A model generated the notes under the pieces. That model did not search any database. It saw only the letters and a list, made by a program, of their open reading frames with translations, and was not told where the DNA came from. A stretch of 64,000 nt of DNA from Synergistetes bacterium HGW-Synergistetes-1 (lineage in GTDB: Bacteria > Synergistota > Synergistia > Synergistales > Synergistaceae): contig PGXO01000001.1 of NCBI GenBank assembly GCA_002839185.1, positions 124,001 to 188,000 of the forward strand. The letters are read 5' to 3'. Of this stretch, positions 32,565 to 42,349 are shown piece by piece. The stretch's first letter is position 1, and each line of letters starts with the position of its first letter. The position numbers and the translations under genes are program-made.

Positions 32565-33680
32565 ATGAAAATTGCACTGGGAGCTGACCATGCGGGATAC
32601 GGACTTAAGGAAGAGATCAAGGAACACCTTACATCATCAGGACATGAGATCATTGACTGCGGGACCTCTTCGGGAGACCTCAGCGTCGATTATCCCGACT
32701 GCGGATTCAGGACTGCCGAAACAGTAGCCAGCCATAAGGCGGATCTCGGGATCCTTTTCTGTGGAACCGGGATCGGGATGAGCATAACCGCAAACAAAGT
32801 CGCAGGGATCAGGGCAGCTCTATGCCATGATCATTTCACAGCCGCGATGAGCCGCAGGCACAATAATGCAAACGTCCTGGCCATTGGAAGCAGGGTGACC
32901 GGATCAGGCCTTGCAAAAGAGATAGTCGATACTTGGCTTAACGAAGAGTTTGAAGGCGGAAGGCACGCTTTCCGGATAGACAAAATCACAGCCTTTGAGA
33001 GAGACCATGCCTCCGATAACGCTTCAGCAACATGTTCATCTAATTCAGCAGGAGGAAGAACAGTTGTTGTGGATCATCCCCTTGTAAGGCACAAACTTGG
33101 ACTCATGAGGGACAAGAACACGTCATCCAAGGATTTCAGGGATCTTGTCCAGGAAGTGGCAGGACTCATGGTATATGAGATAACGAGGCACCTCTCCCTT
33201 GAAGAGATAGAGATTGAAACTCCTGTTGCAAAGACAAGGGTATTCACACTTTCAGGCAAAAAGCTGGCCATTGTGCCGGTATTGAGGGCCGGACTTGGAA
33301 TGGTCGAAGGCATCCTTAAGCTTATACCTAATGCCAAAGTGGGGCATATTGGACTTTACAGAGATCCTGTAACTCTGATGCCTGTCGATTATTATTGCAA
33401 ACTGCCCAAAGACATTTCTGAAAGAGACATTTTCGTTGTAGATCCAATGCTTGCAACAGGCGGATCAGCAGCTGCAGCGGTAGCGCATATAAAGGGTTAC
33501 GGCGGTAAAAGGATCGCACTCGTTTCCCTGCTGTCTGCTCCTGAAGGAATTGCGAGATTCCATGAGGAACACCCGGATGTCGATATTTATACCGCAGCGG
33601 TCGACAGTCATCTGAACGATCACGGCTATATCGTGCCTGGACTTGGAGATGCAGGAGACAGACTTTTCGGTACAAAATAG
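32565..33680 (+). CDS. Fusion of ribose-5-phosphate isomerase B and uracil phosphoribosyltransferase
   Basis: Residues 1-145 form Rpi[14 protein letters not shown] (6-18), active-site [16 protein letters not shown] (about 66-81) and [12 protein letters not shown] (about 99-110). After a Ser/Asn/Ala-rich linker (about 148-163) comes a complete uracil phosphoribosyltransferase (about 164-371), with VLRAGLGM, the PRPP loop [12 protein letters not shown] (about 295-306) and the uracil-binding [13 protein letters not shown] at the C-terminus. RpiB supplies ribose 5-phosphate, the precursor of the PRPP used by Upp. In many Firmicutes rpiB, upp and wecB are adjacent separate genes, so the fusion may have come from that order. 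GGGAGG precedes the ATG. Confidence 0.93.
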
Positions 33681-35794: not shown

Positions 35795-35838
35795 TTTTCT
35801 ATCAGTTTGGACTGGAGTGACTGTTGTTGGAGGATAAA

Positions 35839-37083
35839 ATGATCATCAGGGGGGGGACCCCTCTTTACGGTACGGTCGACGTGCAGGGAGCTAAGAATGC
35901 AGCCCTGCCGGTAATGGCTGCATCGATACTTCTGAAGGGAAAGAAACTGACCCTCAAAAAGGTCCCTGACCTCTATGATATTAATACCATGTCTGACCTG
36001 CTCAGGCATATTGGTATCACAGTAGAATTTAAAAATAATTTTATGACGATAGATGTCCCGGAAGAACTGAGTTGGGACGCTCCTTCTGAACTGGTCCGTA
36101 AGATGAGAGCATCCTCTCTGGTTTTGGGCCCGCTCCTTGCAAGATGCGGCAAGGCTATCCTTCCTTTGCCGGGAGGATGCGTCCTTGGAAGCCGGCCGAT
36201 AGATTTCCATCTTAAAGGGCTTGCAAAAATGGGAGCGGAGATAGACCTGAACCGTGGTTCTGTTTACGCCAGCGCCGGAAAACTCAAGGGAGAAAGGATA
36301 ACTCTGGACTACCCATCGGTAGGTGCAACTGAAAATCTTATGATGGCCGCTGCTCTGGCTCACGGAGTCACCTATATTGAAAATGCGGCCCAGGAACCTG
36401 AAATAATAAACCTGGCAGATGTGCTGAGACTTATGGGAATACCCGTCAAAGGAGACGGCACGCCGACGATTAGGATCACAGGCAGGCCGGAGGCCGGATC
36501 AGCCGAGGCTGAGATAATACCTGACAGAATAGAGGCCGCGACTTACCTCATAGCAGGGATAATTACAAAAGGGGCCGTGACTGTCAGAGGGATAGATTCA
36601 GGGCTCATTGACGCCATACTCCTTAAGCTTGAAGAGGCGGGGGCAACGATAGAGATCATGCTGGACGAGGTCACAGCCAAATGCAACGGCACTTTAACCG
36701 GAATACCTGTCAAGACCATGCCTTATCCGGGATTTCCGACAGATACACAGCCCCAGCTGATGGCCGCACTCGCCCTTGCTTCTGGAACGAGCGTAATACA
36801 TGAGAGCGTTTTTGACTCAAGACTTCTTCACATAAACGAATTCAAAAAAATGGGAGCCAAGATCGAACTTCAGGATTCGACTGCAATAGTCACAGGAGTA
36901 GGTAAACTTATCGGGACCGAGGTCCACGCATCCAACCTGAGGGCAGGTGCCGCGCTTATACTGATGGGTCTGGCGGCCGAAGGAGCGACTACCGTTCACG
37001 ACCTTTACCATGTATGGAGAGGCTATGAGGGTCTCGTTGATAAACTGAGATCCCTCGGAGCTGACATAGAGCTTATTGCCTAG
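35839..37083 (+). CDS. murA: UDP-N-acetylglucosamine 1-carboxyvinyltransferase
   Basis: A 414-residue EPSP-synthase-fold enzyme making the first committed peptidoglycan precursor. The KNAALP motif (about 18-23) and the fosfomycin-target Cys in PLPGGCVLGSRPID (about 115) are present, so this is a fosfomycin-sensitive type. ATG 35839 is chosen because GGAGGA lies just before it; a TTG at 35824 lies upstream of that site and is unlikely. It follows wecB by 44 bp. Confidence 0.94.
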   Translation: MIIRGGTPLYGTVDVQGAKNAALPVMAASILLKGKKLTLKKVPDLYDINTMSDLLRHIGITVEFKNNFMTIDVPEELSWDAPSELVRKMRASSLVLGPLLARCGKAILPLPGGCVLGSRPIDFHLKGLAKMGAEIDLNRGSVYASAGKLKGERITLDYPSVGATENLMMAAALAHGVTYIENAAQEPEIINLADVLRLMGIPVKGDGTPTIRITGRPEAGSAEAEIIPDRIEAATYLIAGIITKGAVTVRGIDSGLIDAILLKLEEAGATIEIMLDEVTAKCNGTLTGIPVKTMPYPGFPTDTQPQLMAALALASGTSVIHESVFDSRLLHINEFKKMGAKIELQDSTAIVTGVGKLIGTEVHASNLRAGAALILMGLAAEGATTVHDLYHVWRGYEGLVDKLRSLGADIELIA

Positions 37084-37102: not shown

Positions 37103-37960
37103 ATGGAAGAGAGCAAGAATCAGCATAATAGAGAAGAGAAACTCCAACGGGTCACGACCTATGCTTTTGTGGGAGCTGCAGGGACAGGCAAGAGCCAGAG
37201 GGCACAGTCGGTAGCATCTATTGTTGATGCAGATTATATAATCGACGACGGACTTGTTATTTACAAGGGCAGCATAGTATGCGGCAAAAGCGCAAAATCC
37301 GAAAGGAACCAAATCAGCGCGATCAGGAGGGCCCTTTTTGAATTCGACGACCATCGCGATGAGGTCATGAATTTTTTTTCAAAAGCGGCTCCGTGCTCGC
37401 TTATGATAATCGCGACATCTGACGACATGGTGATGAGGATCATCAAAAAGCTGAAACTCCCTCTTCCTGAAAGGGTGATAAGGATAGAAGAAATTGCGGC
37501 GCCTGAAGAGATCAGCAAGGCCAGGAGAGAACGCTTCACTAAAGGAAAACACGTTATACCGGTCTCTCATGTCCTCGTAAGGAAGAATTTTGCAGGCAAG
37601 CTTGTCGGTCAGCTTAGGGTCTTCTGGAAATCTAAGGACAACCACGAGGGCGAGAAGACAATAGTAAGACCTCCCTTCAGTTTTTATGGGGAAGTCCACA
37701 TTGAACCTGAGGCCATAGAAGATCTTGTGACCTTCATAGCAGGAAGAACGGCACAGGTCGCAAGGGTCGTAGAAGTCAACGTCAGCCCGGAGAACGAAGA
37801 AAGCCTTTCCATTACGATAAAGATAGCTGCAAGCCTGGGTGAAAAGAACTTCGTCACGCTTGCCACGCTAGTCAAGGAGAGGACAGCTGTAAGCGTAAGG
37901 TATTTTACAGGGGTCAACGTAAAAAATGTCGATGTAATAATAACGGAGGTGCTTATCTGA
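37103..37960 (+). CDS. P-loop NTPase domain fused to Asp23/Gls24 domain
   Basis: The N-terminal ~170 residues have a Walker A GAAGTGKS (about 24-31) and DADYIIDDGLVIYKG, which reads as a nucleotide-binding fold; a clear Walker B is not obvious. The last ~100 residues (from FSFYGEVHIEPEAIEDLV) match the Asp23/Gls24 envelope-stress domain. The specific function is unknown. The gene lies between murA and a DNA glycosylase gene in a run of envelope and isoprenoid genes; its stop overlaps the next start (TGATGG). Asp23 proteins are usually small single-domain proteins, so the fusion is unusual. Confidence 0.75.
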   Translation: MEESKNQHNREEKLQRVTTYAFVGAAGTGKSQRAQSVASIVDADYIIDDGLVIYKGSIVCGKSAKSERNQISAIRRALFEFDDHRDEVMNFFSKAAPCSLMIIATSDDMVMRIIKKLKLPLPERVIRIEEIAAPEEISKARRERFTKGKHVIPVSHVLVRKNFAGKLVGQLRVFWKSKDNHEGEKTIVRPPFSFYGEVHIEPEAIEDLVTFIAGRTAQVARVVEVNVSPENEESLSITIKIAASLGEKNFVTLATLVKERTAVSVRYFTGVNVKNVDVIITEVLI

Positions 37961-38619
37961 TGGATGAGATAAAAAAAATTCCGGATCTCTCTGCCGAAGA
38001 AAAGGATAATGCACGGGGTATACTTTGGGAAAAGGCTAAGGCAGGCGCGCTCTCGTGCAATGGGTGCTCTCTGTCTGCAACAAGAACAAAAGTGGTCTTC
38101 GGTGACGGCAGCGAGCGCAGCAAGCTCCTGTTTATAGGCGAAGGCCCCGGCGCAGATGAAGACGAACAGGGGCTCCCTTTTGTAGGAAGGGCTGGCCAGC
38201 TTTTGACGCAAATACTTACAGCCGGCGGAATAGACAGGAAAGATGTCTACATAACCAACATAGTAAAATGCAGGCCGCCAGAAAACAGGATACCCACTCC
38301 CGAGGAAATGATAATTTGCGATCAGCATCTGCAGACACAGATAATGCTGATAGATCCCGAACTGATCATTCTGCTCGGCAACACTCCAACAAGATGGATA
38401 TTGAAGACCAACGAGGGAATAACAAAAATCAGGGGCAAATGGTTTGAATGGCGTGGAAAAGCTGTGATGCCGATGTTTCACCCAAGCTATCTCTTAAGGA
38501 ACGCATCTTCTAAAGAGGGAAGCCCCAAGCACCTTACATGGATCGACATACAGGAAGTAAAAAGATCGTGGGACATAGTCAGGGAGACCGGTAATTTAAG
38601 CCACATCAAATTCGGGTAG
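37960..38619 (+). CDS. Uracil-DNA glycosylase family 4 (Fe-S type)
   Basis: A 219-residue family 4 UDG. The catalytic motif GEGPGADEDEQGLPFVGRAG is at about 65-84 and the second motif is MFHPSYLL (about 172). Four candidate [4Fe-4S] cysteines are seen: CNGC (about 34-37), KCRPP (about 107) and ICDQHL (about 122). It removes uracil from DNA. Confidence 0.92.
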   Translation: MDEIKKIPDLSAEEKDNARGILWEKAKAGALSCNGCSLSATRTKVVFGDGSERSKLLFIGEGPGADEDEQGLPFVGRAGQLLTQILTAGGIDRKDVYITNIVKCRPPENRIPTPEEMIICDQHLQTQIMLIDPELIILLGNTPTRWILKTNEGITKIRGKWFEWRGKAVMPMFHPSYLLRNASSKEGSPKHLTWIDIQEVKRSWDIVRETGNLSHIKFG

Positions 38620-38625
38620 GATCAG

Positions 38626-39315
38626 ATGGAAGAGAACAGACTGAATCACATTGGAATAATCATGGACGGGAACCGCCGCTGGGCAAGATCCAGGGGGCTC
38701 CCTGCCATTCTGGGCCACAGAGAGGGCATAAAGGCTGTCGAAAGAACTCTCATCGCAGCAAAAGAACTTGGTATACCCTGTGTCTCACTATATGCCTTTT
38801 CCACAGAAAACTGGAAAAGACCAAAATCCGAAGTTCTTGGACTAATGGGATTGCTCAAGTACTACCTGAAGTTAAAACTTAAGGAGCTGAATCAAGAAAA
38901 CGCAAGGATCAGATTCGCAGGCAACATCTCAGCGCTTTCTGAGGATATTCAGGAAATACTTCTGGATGCCGAGCAAAAAACCAGGAACAACGATTCAATG
39001 CAGCTTGTTGTCTGCCTGAACTACGGCGGAAGGCAGGAGATACTCGACGCAGTGAACAAAATGATCGGGGATGGGGTATCGCTGCCGGTGACAGAAGACG
39101 TTTTCCGTCAGTACCTTTACCTGCCTGATCTTCCTGACCCTGACCTTCTCATCAGGACCAGCGGAGAGCTCAGGATGAGCAATTTCTGGCTATGGCAGGG
39201 CAGTTACAGCGAATATTATTTTACAGATAAATATTGGCCCGACTTCGGCAAGCCTGATCTGGAAATGGCAATAGCCGATTACTACAGGAGGGAAAGACGT
39301 TATGGCAAAGCCTGA
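38626..39315 (+). CDS. uppS: Undecaprenyl diphosphate synthase
   Basis: A 229-residue cis-prenyltransferase. The signature is GIIMDGNRRWARSRGLP (about 9-25); YAFSTENWKRP (about 60) and the C-terminal LLIRTSGELRMSNFWLWQ (about 172-189) are conserved. It makes the C55 lipid carrier used by the MraY-superfamily transferase encoded at 33.7 kb. It is the first gene of the uppS-cdsA-dxr-rseP-ispG run. Confidence 0.95.
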   Translation: MEENRLNHIGIIMDGNRRWARSRGLPAILGHREGIKAVERTLIAAKELGIPCVSLYAFSTENWKRPKSEVLGLMGLLKYYLKLKLKELNQENARIRFAGNISALSEDIQEILLDAEQKTRNNDSMQLVVCLNYGGRQEILDAVNKMIGDGVSLPVTEDVFRQYLYLPDLPDPDLLIRTSGELRMSNFWLWQGSYSEYYFTDKYWPDFGKPDLEMAIADYYRRERRYGKA

Positions 39316-40132
39316 TAATTTTCTGACATCTATACCGGATCTTCCTTTAAGAGCTTTCAGCAGCATCTTCATCGTACTTTTAATACTCGGAGGGATATTG
39401 AAAGGAGGGCATGTCTGGAATGCTCTTGTCTTCGTCGTGGCAATGATCTCTCTATGGGAGTTCTACAAACTATTATCCACGAAGCACGACATTTCACCAT
39501 GGCTCATCATGGTATCCGGAGCTTTCATCCTGATTGGAGCTTCCTCTGAAATGAGTCTTACAGCAATACTATGTTCCATTTCATCTATCGTCTTTGTAGC
39601 TCTTTTTCTTGAGATAGTTCGCCGTCAGGTAAGCGCCGAGAGTTTCGCACTTGAGAACATGGGGGCAACGATAGTCGGGATAGCATATGTCATCCTGCCA
39701 TGGTCCTTTATGATACTTATACGTTCCAGGGAGCTTGGATCTCTCTTTTTGATCACCCTCTTTTTCTGCACATGGAGCTGCGATGTTGCCGCTTATATTG
39801 TGGGAAGCCGCCTGGGAAGGAACCTTCTGTGTGAAAAAATCAGCCCCAAAAAAACATGGGAGGGATTTTTCGGAGGAACAGCCGCCAGTCTCCTGTGCGG
39901 AGGCCTGCTCGCTCTGATATTCTCATTTCCGCCCCTTCCGCTGCTGTTGATGGGACTCCTCTGCGGAGTTGCCGGACAGCTTGGCGACCTCGGAGAATCA
40001 GTACTTAAGAGAGAGGCAGGAGTCAAAGACACCGGATCGCTGATACCCGGACACGGAGGATTCTTAGACAGATTTGACAGCATCCTCGTGAACGGCACTC
40101 TCGCTTTCGTTATATTTGAACTCATAGGTTGA
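39302..40132 (+). CDS. cdsA: Phosphatidate cytidylyltransferase
   Basis: A 276-residue membrane protein with about eight helices. The CDP-diglyceride synthase signature is at about 205-265, including SPKKTWEGFFGG (about 180) and KDTGSLIPGHGGFLDRFDS (about 243-261). It makes CDP-diacylglycerol for phospholipids. It overlaps uppS by 14 nt. Confidence 0.94.
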   Translation: MAKPDNFLTSIPDLPLRAFSSIFIVLLILGGILKGGHVWNALVFVVAMISLWEFYKLLSTKHDISPWLIMVSGAFILIGASSEMSLTAILCSISSIVFVALFLEIVRRQVSAESFALENMGATIVGIAYVILPWSFMILIRSRELGSLFLITLFFCTWSCDVAAYIVGSRLGRNLLCEKISPKKTWEGFFGGTAASLLCGGLLALIFSFPPLPLLLMGLLCGVAGQLGDLGESVLKREAGVKDTGSLIPGHGGFLDRFDSILVNGTLAFVIFELIG

Positions 40133-40133
40133 T

Positions 40134-41306
40134 ATGGTGAGTCCTTTTCCAAAGATCAGATTAGCAGTAATTGGAGCTACTGGAAGTGTGGGCGGGGCAG
40201 TTTTAGATATTTGCAGAAGGTTCCCTGAACGCTTTGATGTTGTTGCTTTGGCAGCTCAAAGCAATCAGGGCAAACTTTTGGAACTTGCTTCGATTTATAA
40301 TGCTAAAAAGCTTTGCCTGACTAAACCTCTTTTAGGCAAATTCAAGACAGATGGCTTTGATTGCATGACCGGTGAAGATGCCCTTTGCGAGATAGCCTCA
40401 GACCCTGATGTTGACCATGTTGTATTCGCATCATCGGGCGTATCAGCCATAAAAGCACTTCAGACAGCACTGAAAGAAGACAAGGATGTATCCCTGGCAA
40501 ACAAGGAAAGCATCGTTGTCGCCGGTCCGTGGGTAATGCCGCTTGTAAAACGTAAAGATCAGCTGAGGCCGGTAGACAGCGAACACAGTGCCGTCTGGCA
40601 GTGTCTCAGGGAAGATCATAAGCATGAGATAGCAAAGATCTGGCTTACCGCATCAGGAGGCCCCTTCAGGGATCACTCAAAAGAAATGTTTGAAAGAGTC
40701 ACACTCGAAGAGACTCTCTCTCATCCCGTATGGAAAATGGGGCCCAAAATAACAGTGGACAGCGCGACATTGATGAACAAGGGAATCGAATGCATCGAAG
40801 CGATGCAGCTCTTCGGACTTCCTGCCAATAAGGTCAGCGCACTCATCCATCCAAAGTCACAGGTACACGGCGCTGTCCTTTTCATAGACGGAACAATGAA
40901 GATGCTTGTCTCTCAACCTGACATGCGCCTTCCTGCAGCAGCAGCGCTTGCATGGCCGGACAGACTGGACCTTGTCTCTTCCGGACTTGATTTTATTGAG
41001 CCTGAAAAATGGGATCTGCAGTTTAGGGAAATTGACGGTTCCCTTTTCCCATGTTTTAGTATAGCCTTCAAAGCAGGCGAGATGGGAGGAGCATATCCAT
41101 CTCTCCTTGTGGGAGCCGATGAAGCCGCAGTACAGGCTTTTCTGGAAAGGACCATACCATTCACGGCAATTTCACAGATAATTGAGGAGACTCTTGCCAA
41201 ATCGGTTTCGGCTTCCCCCGAAACTCTTGATGAAGCTATAGCCTTAGTAAGCACAGGCGAGAGGATCGCCAGGGAACTGTGTAAAAAATGGAGGCATCAC
41301 TTTTGA
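40134..41306 (+). CDS. dxr: 1-deoxy-D-xylulose 5-phosphate reductoisomerase
   Basis: A 390-residue MEP-pathway enzyme. NADPH-binding GATGSVGGAVLDI is at about 12-24; substrate motifs are NKESIVVAG (about 122), DSEHSAVWQCL (about 143) and the ASGGPFRDHS loop (about 172). The catalytic acidic residues lie in KMGPKITVDSATLMNKGIE. Start 2 bp after cdsA; it overlaps rseP by 19 nt. Confidence 0.95.
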   Translation: MVSPFPKIRLAVIGATGSVGGAVLDICRRFPERFDVVALAAQSNQGKLLELASIYNAKKLCLTKPLLGKFKTDGFDCMTGEDALCEIASDPDVDHVVFASSGVSAIKALQTALKEDKDVSLANKESIVVAGPWVMPLVKRKDQLRPVDSEHSAVWQCLREDHKHEIAKIWLTASGGPFRDHSKEMFERVTLEETLSHPVWKMGPKITVDSATLMNKGIECIEAMQLFGLPANKVSALIHPKSQVHGAVLFIDGTMKMLVSQPDMRLPAAAALAWPDRLDLVSSGLDFIEPEKWDLQFREIDGSLFPCFSIAFKAGEMGGAYPSLLVGADEAAVQAFLERTIPFTAISQIIEETLAKSVSASPETLDEAIALVSTGERIARELCKKWRHHF

Positions 41307-42349
41307 TAAGTATCATCTCTTTTCTAATTGTAATTTCTATCTGTGTGGTATCACACGAAGGCGGCCACTACCTCTCTGCCAAATGGAGAGATGTACTGAT
41401 CCATGAGTTTTCATTCGGTATGGGACCTGCTGTGTGGAGCAGGCAAAAGGGTGAGACCCTCTGGTCTGTCAGAGCTTTCCCCATAGGGGGGTTTGTCAGG
41501 CTAGAAGGGGAGGACGCATCAGAGGAAGCCCCTAAACCTGACGGTTATGACCCTTCGCGTTCGCTTTCTTCAAAAAAACCATGGGAAAGGCTTCTTGTGT
41601 TGGCTTCAGGAGCCTGTGTGAACCTGATATTGGCATGGCTCCTTACTGCCGCCCTGCTCACTGGTCACGGTGTGATGGATCTTGAAAGACCTCTGGTAGG
41701 GAAGATCATGGAAGGAACACCTGCCTACTCCGCCGGCATGGAGTCCGGAGATGTAATAAAATCTATAAATGGAAAAGAACTGAATAAATGGTCGGATATC
41801 AGGGAGACTATACAAAATAAGGATGTCATCGGCGATCATTTTCATGTCACCGTGGAGAGGGGAGAACAGACCCTCAATCTCGACATTGACATCCCTGTTG
41901 ACCCGGCTCACGGAGGACGTCTGCTCGGAGTACAACCCGGAAGGATAACTTATCCCGTTTACGTCGCGCTTCAAAAGAGCCTGGGCTATTCGTGGAACAT
42001 GGGGGTTGAGATACTCAGAGGTCTCTGGATGGTACTTACCAGAAAGGTCCAGTCTGACGTAGTCGGGCCTGTTGGCATAGCCGTAATGGCAGGTGACGCA
42101 CTTAAACAGGGAATATGGTCTTTCATTGCTTTCCTAGGCGTCATCAACCTCCATCTCGGTCTTCTAAACCTATTGCCTTTCCCGGCTCTTGACGGCGGAA
42201 GGATAATATTCATACTTGCAGAGATGATCACAGGAAGAAAGGTCCCTGAAAAATGGGAATCCCTGATCCATTACGGCGGATTTATAATACTCATCTCCCT
42301 TATAATCCTTGTAACAGGAAAAGACATTATCAGACTATTTATCAAATAA
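41288..42349 (+). CDS. rseP: Site-2 intramembrane metalloprotease
   Basis: A 353-residue S2P protease. The zinc motif HEGGHY (about 24-29) lies in the first helix, a single PDZ domain spans about 130-205, and the second active-site segment is LLNLLPFPALDGGRI (about 293-307, supplying the Asp ligand). RseP cleaves anti-sigma factors or signal-peptide remnants at the inner membrane. HExGH with Gly rather than Phe at the third position is a mild deviation. Confidence 0.92.
   Translation: MEASLLISIISFLIVISICVVSHEGGHYLSAKWRDVLIHEFSFGMGPAVWSRQKGETLWSVRAFPIGGFVRLEGEDASEEAPKPDGYDPSRSLSSKKPWERLLVLASGACVNLILAWLLTAALLTGHGVMDLERPLVGKIMEGTPAYSAGMESGDVIKSINGKELNKWSDIRETIQNKDVIGDHFHVTVERGEQTLNLDIDIPVDPAHGGRLLGVQPGRITYPVYVALQKSLGYSWNMGVEILRGLWMVLTRKVQSDVVGPVGIAVMAGDALKQGIWSFIAFLGVINLHLGLLNLLPFPALDGGRIIFILAEMITGRKVPEKWESLIHYGGFIILISLIILVTGKDIIRLFIK

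Follow-up and report, generated by a model that had tools for sequence, protein, structure and literature searches.

An Asp23 protein with an N-terminal NTPase-like domain encoded in the murA-udg interval of Synergistota

Asp23 proteins are abundant and widespread, and in the excerpts of two reports consulted here their molecular job is described as unclear (PMC6954212, PMC5437119). A 64,000-nucleotide stretch of Synergistetes bacterium HGW-Synergistetes-1 DNA, called the window below, contains an open reading frame (here termed X) in which an Asp23 domain appears to follow a nucleotide-binding domain. Is this architecture genuine, how far does it extend among bacteria, and what might it do? 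An NTPase-like domain on an Asp23 protein would provide a handle for asking whether an Asp23 protein can be nucleotide-driven. We found no description of a fused P-loop/Asp23 form in the open-licence PMC literature, and X is a new fused variant of Asp23 that carries an NTPase-like domain.

Domain architecture of X

X is a coding gene. Its copies in seven congeneric genomes are 86-98% identical to the window copy, a relative in Synergistaceae bacterium UBA1037 lies at 92%, and dN/dS is 0-0.11 among the pairs for which dS is computable. The gene is part of a tight run: X begins at 37103, shortly after the end of murA at 37083, and its stop codon overlaps the start of udg by 1 nt within the sequence TGATG (Table 1). 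The original prediction placed X in a diderm, inside a run of cell-envelope and isoprenoid genes, and both descriptions hold: an Omp85 match fits a diderm host, and the run includes murA and uppS by Pfam and cdsA, dxr and rseP by reading. Elsewhere in the window, one open reading frame (32565-33680) encodes ribose-5-phosphate isomerase B (PF02502, residues 3-141) and uracil phosphoribosyltransferase (PF14681, residues 168-370) as a single fused protein, and matches of ~1.1 kb to this fusion, near the full length of the frame, are present in loci L056 and L057.

Table 1. Positions in the window of X, its parts and the neighboring genes.
Feature	Position	Strand	Basis or remark
murA, upstream neighbor of X	35824..37083	+	PF00275
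X, two-domain protein (P-loop NTPase-like domain, linker, Asp23 domain)	37103..37960	+	ATG start, 285 aa
P-loop NTPase-like domain, residues 16-150	37148..37552	+	AlphaFold2 model; weak fold matches, mostly P-loop kinases/ATPases
Walker A, G24-AAGTGK-S31	37172..37195	+	Conservation and model
D48-D49, end of strand 2, candidate Mg2+/catalytic acids	37244..37249	+	Both invariant in 78 sequences
S63-A64-K65, candidate phosphate/substrate contact	37289..37297	+	S63 and K65 invariant; A64 >=90%
Conserved linker, residues 151-199 (HVIPV-like start, IVRPPFS-like end)	37553..37699	+	Conservation, dN, model
Divergent Asp23 domain, residues 200-285, predicted helix-strand-strand-helix-strand	37700..37957	+	PF03780 in orthologues; NF033218; model
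X stop codon, TGA	37958-37960	+	
udg, uracil-DNA glycosylase superfamily	37960..38619	+	PF03167, E 6.1e-39
uppS, undecaprenyl diphosphate synthase	38626..39315	+	PF01255
cdsA-like, CDP-diacylglycerol synthase	39302..40132	+	Named by reading; synteny
dxr	40134..41306	+	Named by reading; synteny
rseP-like site-2 protease	41288..42349	+	Named by reading; synteny

When the window protein is searched by itself, Pfam returns sub-threshold matches only (ABC_tran at E 0.007; Asp23, PF03780, at E 0.011 and 16.6 bits, where the gathering cut-off is 28), and no whole-length model for X was found in Pfam or NCBIfam. From these matches alone the two-domain claim is weak, and it becomes strong once the family is included. 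At E <= 0.01, PF03780 recognizes 70 of the 78 family members, the best of them at 3.7e-14, and its gathering score is passed by at least 24 Synergistota orthologues of X in a six-frame search and by X in 14 of 29 spirochaete genomes. The union of a P-loop NTPase and an Asp23/Gls24 domain in one polypeptide, as originally predicted, is thus borne out by a conserved Walker A motif, a P-loop model and PF03780 matches in orthologues. We conclude that X almost certainly represents an old two-domain family, as judged from architecture and orthology.

An AlphaFold2 model of whole X, based on 78 sequences, has a mean pLDDT of 85.1, with confident N and C domains and values below 50 for residues 151-191. 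Because the C domain filled the matches listed in a VIA fold search with the whole model, the N domain was modelled and searched alone. Residues 1-152 are predicted to adopt a P-loop fold (pLDDT 92.8, pTM 0.86), and the GAAGTGKS segment, on whose placement the original prediction depended, lies within that fold between a predicted strand (residues 17-23) and a helix (residues 30-40). A GxxxxGK[ST] Walker A motif that is conserved in the 78 sequences and modelled in a strand-loop-helix setting is as expected for a P-loop NTPase. The PDB matches of the isolated N domain are mostly P-loop ATPases and kinases, yet none is strong (lowest E 0.02; highest Z 6.1 among the matches listed), and therefore no finer family was assigned to it. 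Matches of X to ABC transporter and AAA proteins rest mainly on the P-loop region and were not accepted as kinship.

Several residues of the N domain are invariant in the 78 sequences. Within the P-loop these are G24, G27, G29, K30 and S31, with T28 retained in at least 90%; beyond it, the pair D48-D49 after strand 2 and the residues S63 and K65 are joined by R144 and H150. No acid follows the strand at residues 98-104, where residues 104-106 read ATS, and this, like the weakness of the fold matches, counts against the nucleotide switch proposed below. The invariant pattern (GxxGTGKS, D48 D49, S63 K65, R144, H150) suggests a working active site, in which the acids might coordinate Mg2+ or act in catalysis and S63-A64-K65 might contact phosphate or substrate.

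The linker between the two domains is under strong constraint, even though it is predicted to be disordered. In the 78 sequences it carries 2.94 bits per column over residues 151-163, 1.79 over 164-182 and 2.82 over 183-199, compared with 3.07 (residues 18-60) and 2.54 (61-150) for the NTPase and 1.76 for the Asp23 domain; across all phyla, then, the middle of the linker is conserved no better than the Asp23 domain. In comparisons of window X with eight relatives from the same family of genomes, pairs that all have the window sequence in common, dN is 0-0.07 for the linker, 0.01-0.21 for the NTPase and 0.005-0.26 for the Asp23 domain. The linker value is below that of the Asp23 domain in all eight pairs and below that of the NTPase in seven, the exception being L006 (0.034 versus 0.029); dS is saturated in many pairs, and dN/dS ratios were obtained for some pairs only. 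The amphipathic moment of residues 163-180 has a mean percentile of 0.74 relative to shuffles of the same residues, with a mean net charge of +2.8 (78 sequences). The amphipathic character of the linker is therefore weak, and this segment is a candidate for membrane binding.

One spirochaete genome, represented by a contig of 1,139,633 bp, which is about the size of the T. pallidum genome, encodes a 268-aa X that consists of NTPase and linker (L212, 6083-6889). No Asp23 domain was found in any frame of the 13-kb locus. This form makes the NTPase and linker look like the core of the protein, to which the Asp23 domain is a part that can be lost. Both the slow evolution of the linker and the Asp23-less X of a T. 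pallidum-sized spirochaete genome are new here. V-type ATPase-like genes, named by reading, lie shortly downstream of X in this locus.

Distribution and descent

The original prediction treated the fusion as exceptional and the Asp23 domain as a Gram-positive feature, and on rarity it was wrong where on architecture it was right. X is present in 50 of 52 genomes of the same family, in 175 of 185 Synergistota genomes, and in all 115 of those with a completeness of 90% or more and a contamination of 5% or less. The fused form is the rule in Synergistota, and X is a core gene of the phylum. Among Clostridia, the class of Thermobrachium celere, full-length X occurs in 86 of 148 sampled genomes and is absent from 62, and in the spirochaete phylum X occurs in 29 of 120 sampled genomes (one copy being without the Asp23 part) and is absent from 91. 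A scan of one genome per species gave at least 144 relatives among candidate stretches, and the 80 that were kept come from Synergistota, Atribacterota, Spirochaetota, Bacillota (Clostridia and Negativicutes) and a few unplaced bins; two scans of viral contigs gave no relatives.

A tree built from 77 named proteins has each of Synergistota, Spirochaetota and Bacillota on one side of a branch (94/87 for Bacillota, a modest support), with Atribacterota in two places and four rows that have no group. Such grouping by phylum fits an old and mainly vertical descent of the fusion. X is retained in spirochaete genomes of ~1 Mb. Given this retention and its place as a core gene of Synergistota, X is unlikely to be dispensable.

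The Asp23 domain itself has a broad range, and the view of it as Gram-positive proved too narrow. PF03780 matches are present in 118 of 120 sampled Synergistota genomes, most of the best ones being short open reading frames other than X, and a passage of PMC5437119 also names Deinococcus/Thermus, Chlamydia, Thermotoga and Bacteroides/Fusobacterium as carriers of the family. The genome of the window has a second, single-domain Asp23 of 168 aa (PF03780 E 1.4e-22; L185, 5813-6319), a YqhY-like protein encoded in an efp-...-asp23-...-nusB-xseA run whose other members were named by reading. X is thus not a stand-in for an ordinary Asp23. By reading, the single-domain gene is followed in L185 by one for a 160-aa membrane-like protein and then by nusB. 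The search of the 29 X-bearing spirochaetes gave no Asp23 protein besides X, the PF03780 match (18 of 29 genomes) being X itself; PF03780 misses X in the other 11, so that a very divergent second Asp23 could be missed as well.

Gene context and possible roles

In Synergistota the gene order murA-X-udg-uppS-cdsA-dxr-rseP recurs. The udg gene lies downstream of X, on the same strand and within 250 bp, in 85 of 88 loci, the misses being L073 (a short contig), L081 and L083. The counts for murA (83), uppS (70) and cdsA (46) in these loci, some of which come from the same genome, are depressed by short loci. The 1-nt overlap of X and udg is found in all eight loci of the genus and the spacing varies elsewhere, where taking the udg start nearest to X favours overlaps. 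Both gapped loci that were read have a class I/II aminotransferase gene between murA and X (L043, 2881-3999; L047, 4836-6056), HisC-like by reading, with PF00155 tested for L043.

Other lineages have other neighbors. Many Clostridia have a Rex-like gene before X and ogg, for 8-oxoguanine glycosylase, after it; others have DUF6062, and in seven loci a cytidylate kinase/acyltransferase (cmk-plsC) cluster lies directly downstream. Spirochaetes have an RluC-like gene near X in 12 loci and a TPR protein in 14, and in a Borrelia-like locus a Mur ligase (murC by reading) adjoins X. A PHP protein is encoded near X in three loci of Negativicutes, and YebC-like genes are also among the lineage-dependent neighbors. 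Envelope or lipid genes are thus found beside X in three lineages, which counts for an envelope reading. Against a purely envelope one counts the equally real finding that X neighbors DNA glycosylase genes of different kinds in two phyla.

The explanation that we put forward, as a possible and still tentative one, is that X acts in the synthesis of envelope or lipid precursors as a factor switched by nucleotide and tethered through its Asp23 domain. The N domain would bind or hydrolyze ATP or GTP, and its nucleotide state would alter the packing of the linker against the NTPase, a partner or the membrane. The Asp23 domain might gather or place this switch, as a relative of the S. aureus Asp23 that AmaP holds at the membrane and that assembles into filaments both in vitro and when amaP is mutated (excerpt of PMC6954212, which also reports a role in envelope stress). 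The target of the switch would be the synthesis of envelope precursors or membrane lipids, as gene context suggests from murA, uppS, cdsA and dxr in Synergistota, cmk-plsC in some Clostridia and murC in Borrelia-like genomes. One component of this explanation, a nucleotide-driven switch or kinase-like activity, can be regarded as more likely than not.

Several findings speak against an envelope role. No envelope neighbor is common to all lineages; many Clostridia have the Rex-like gene and ogg instead, and many spirochaetes the RluC-like and TPR genes. The most constant direct neighbor in Synergistota is udg, and the sampled Clostridia and spirochaetes include the 62 and 91 genomes without X. 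A bolder version of the switch proposal seems improbable to us. According to it, the linker (HVIPV...IVRPPFS) would be the working part, R189 of IVRP would reach as a finger into the active site of the neighboring subunit, and polymerization through Asp23 would turn the NTPase on; X would then be the first known of a class of Asp23 polymers, gated by nucleotide, that set the timing of envelope precursor supply in diderms and monoderms alike, and would be reduced to NTPase and linker in the T. pallidum-like genome.

Among the alternatives, an unlikely one is that X is a small-molecule or RNA kinase or transferase of the P-loop kinase group (adenylate-, gluconate- or polynucleotide-kinase-like, or akin to MiaA/IPT) that is localized by its Asp23 domain. 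The best structural matches, weak as they are, include Clp1 and adenylate, gluconate and polynucleotide kinases (Z up to 6.1), and the IPT model PF01745 recognizes 31 of the 78 N domains when the limit is E <= 0.1, the best at 1.8e-5, and 12 of the 78 whole proteins when it is E <= 0.01. Kinases of this kind have a catalytic or substrate acid where D48-D49 lie in X, after strand 2. Against this stand the absence of a lid domain, by reading of the predicted elements of the N-domain model, and an hhalign comparison with 21 MiaA proteins that covers 42 columns only (87%), where a control with 4 cytidylate kinases covers 25 (76%).

The constancy of udg raises the rather unlikely alternative that X is a base-excision repair partner, an NTPase that serves or regulates DNA glycosylases and uses its Asp23 domain as an oligomerizing platform. 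Beyond udg itself, 39 of the 86 Clostridia genomes with X have the gene of another glycosylase, ogg (PF07934), no more than 4 kb downstream of X and on the same strand, and in 15 of them it is within 250 bp. It is present somewhere in 77 of the 86 and missing from nine, with both genes on one contig in 44. Co-occurrence is slight (77 of 86 versus 46 of 62 genomes; Fisher p 0.025) in a test that ignores kinship, and the pairings of X with glycosylases probably reflect few events per phylum, so the counts are not independent. In the one-genome-per-species scan the ogg-cluster gene appears in nine loci, all from Bacillota, and in no spirochaete locus among the neighbors that were identified. In favor of a repair role, the top Foldseek match of the whole model is Era, a protein with an RNA-binding KH domain as its second domain, yet the TM is 0.21. 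Against it, a Pfam search of X shows nothing of a DNA-binding kind, CDF domains are the best fit to the C domain, and udg in Synergistota is embedded in a longer envelope gene run.

It is also possible, though quite unlikely, that the neighbors are mere housekeeping operon mates and that X works in a different core process, for example in metabolism or in modifying RNA. The change of neighbors from lineage to lineage (RluC-like, Rex-like, PHP, YebC-like, DUF6062 and others) would accord with this, and the very stable gene order around X within Synergistota argues against it.

We consider it very improbable that X performs the job proposed for YqhY, the restraint of acetyl-CoA carboxylase, with nucleotide sensing added. 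The single-domain YqhY-like Asp23 of the same genome and the short open reading frames that make up most of the best PF03780 matches in Synergistota both weigh against such a job, and Borrelia-like genomes retain the whole of X. Borrelia is known to lack fatty acid synthesis, which counts in the same direction. On the other side are the X-bearing spirochaetes, in all 29 of which no other Asp23 protein was found, and the implication of YqhY, itself an Asp23 protein, in the control of B. subtilis acetyl-CoA carboxylase and lipid synthesis (excerpt of PMC5437119). Passages of two further reports describe C. difficile yqhY as essential (PMC12548448) and peptidoglycan-limited cells as not rescued by yqhY induction (PMC10128001). 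Finally, the notion that an assembly error or frameshift joined two genes, for which we found no support, is refuted by the same fusion in the 115 good Synergistota genomes, the 86 Clostridia genomes and 28 of the 120 spirochaete genomes.

Comparison with known systems

The N domain resembles P-loop kinases and ATPases (adenylate kinase, gluconate kinase, Clp1, polynucleotide kinase) in having its Walker A motif between strand 1 and helix 1, and differs from them in its lack of a family-level match and, by reading, in two extra strands (residues 51-54 and 57-61) and the missing lid. Kinship with the MiaA/isopentenyltransferase family suggested itself from the similar look of the stretch that follows the P-loop and from the isoprenoid genes nearby. 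By reading, X shares with MiaA/IPT the P-loop and a D...Y.....G.[ST].K-like stretch. We rejected this kinship at the family level, since the alignment with the 21 Synergistota MiaA sequences fades after its 42 columns, compared with the 25 of the control.

At the level of the whole protein, the best Foldseek match is Era (E 6.9e-6), which likewise has a P-loop domain followed by a small alpha/beta domain. The overall arrangement is, however, not common to the two proteins (TM 0.21, rmsd 17 A), and by reading neither window X nor the family consensus has the NKxD (G4) motif; an Era-like two-domain GTPase was accordingly rejected. The C domain has a fold like that of the cytosolic domain of CDF transporters (MamM/MamB; Z 12.6, rmsd 2.2 A over 79 residues). 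With 13% identity, a MamM model that matches one of the 78 members (2.7e-5) and no transporter part in X, this likeness is a statement about fold only.

Closer parallels come from the Asp23 system. The model for AmaP, the membrane anchor of Asp23 (NF033218), matches 55 of 78 family members at E <= 0.01 (best 5.7e-9), and in window X the match spans residues 196-278. It reaches 17.6 bits there against a cut-off of 55, and X has a P-loop domain in place of a transmembrane segment, none being seen by reading. The Asp23/Gls24 family proper (PF03780, formerly DUF322; Asp23, YqhY and YloU) was described in the original prediction as normally small and single-domain, a description that X, with 285 aa and an N-terminal P-loop domain, does not fit. 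Its likeness to that family, recognized via the orthologues, lies in the C-terminal 86 residues, and what distinguishes X is that this domain is placed behind a P-loop domain and a conserved linker.
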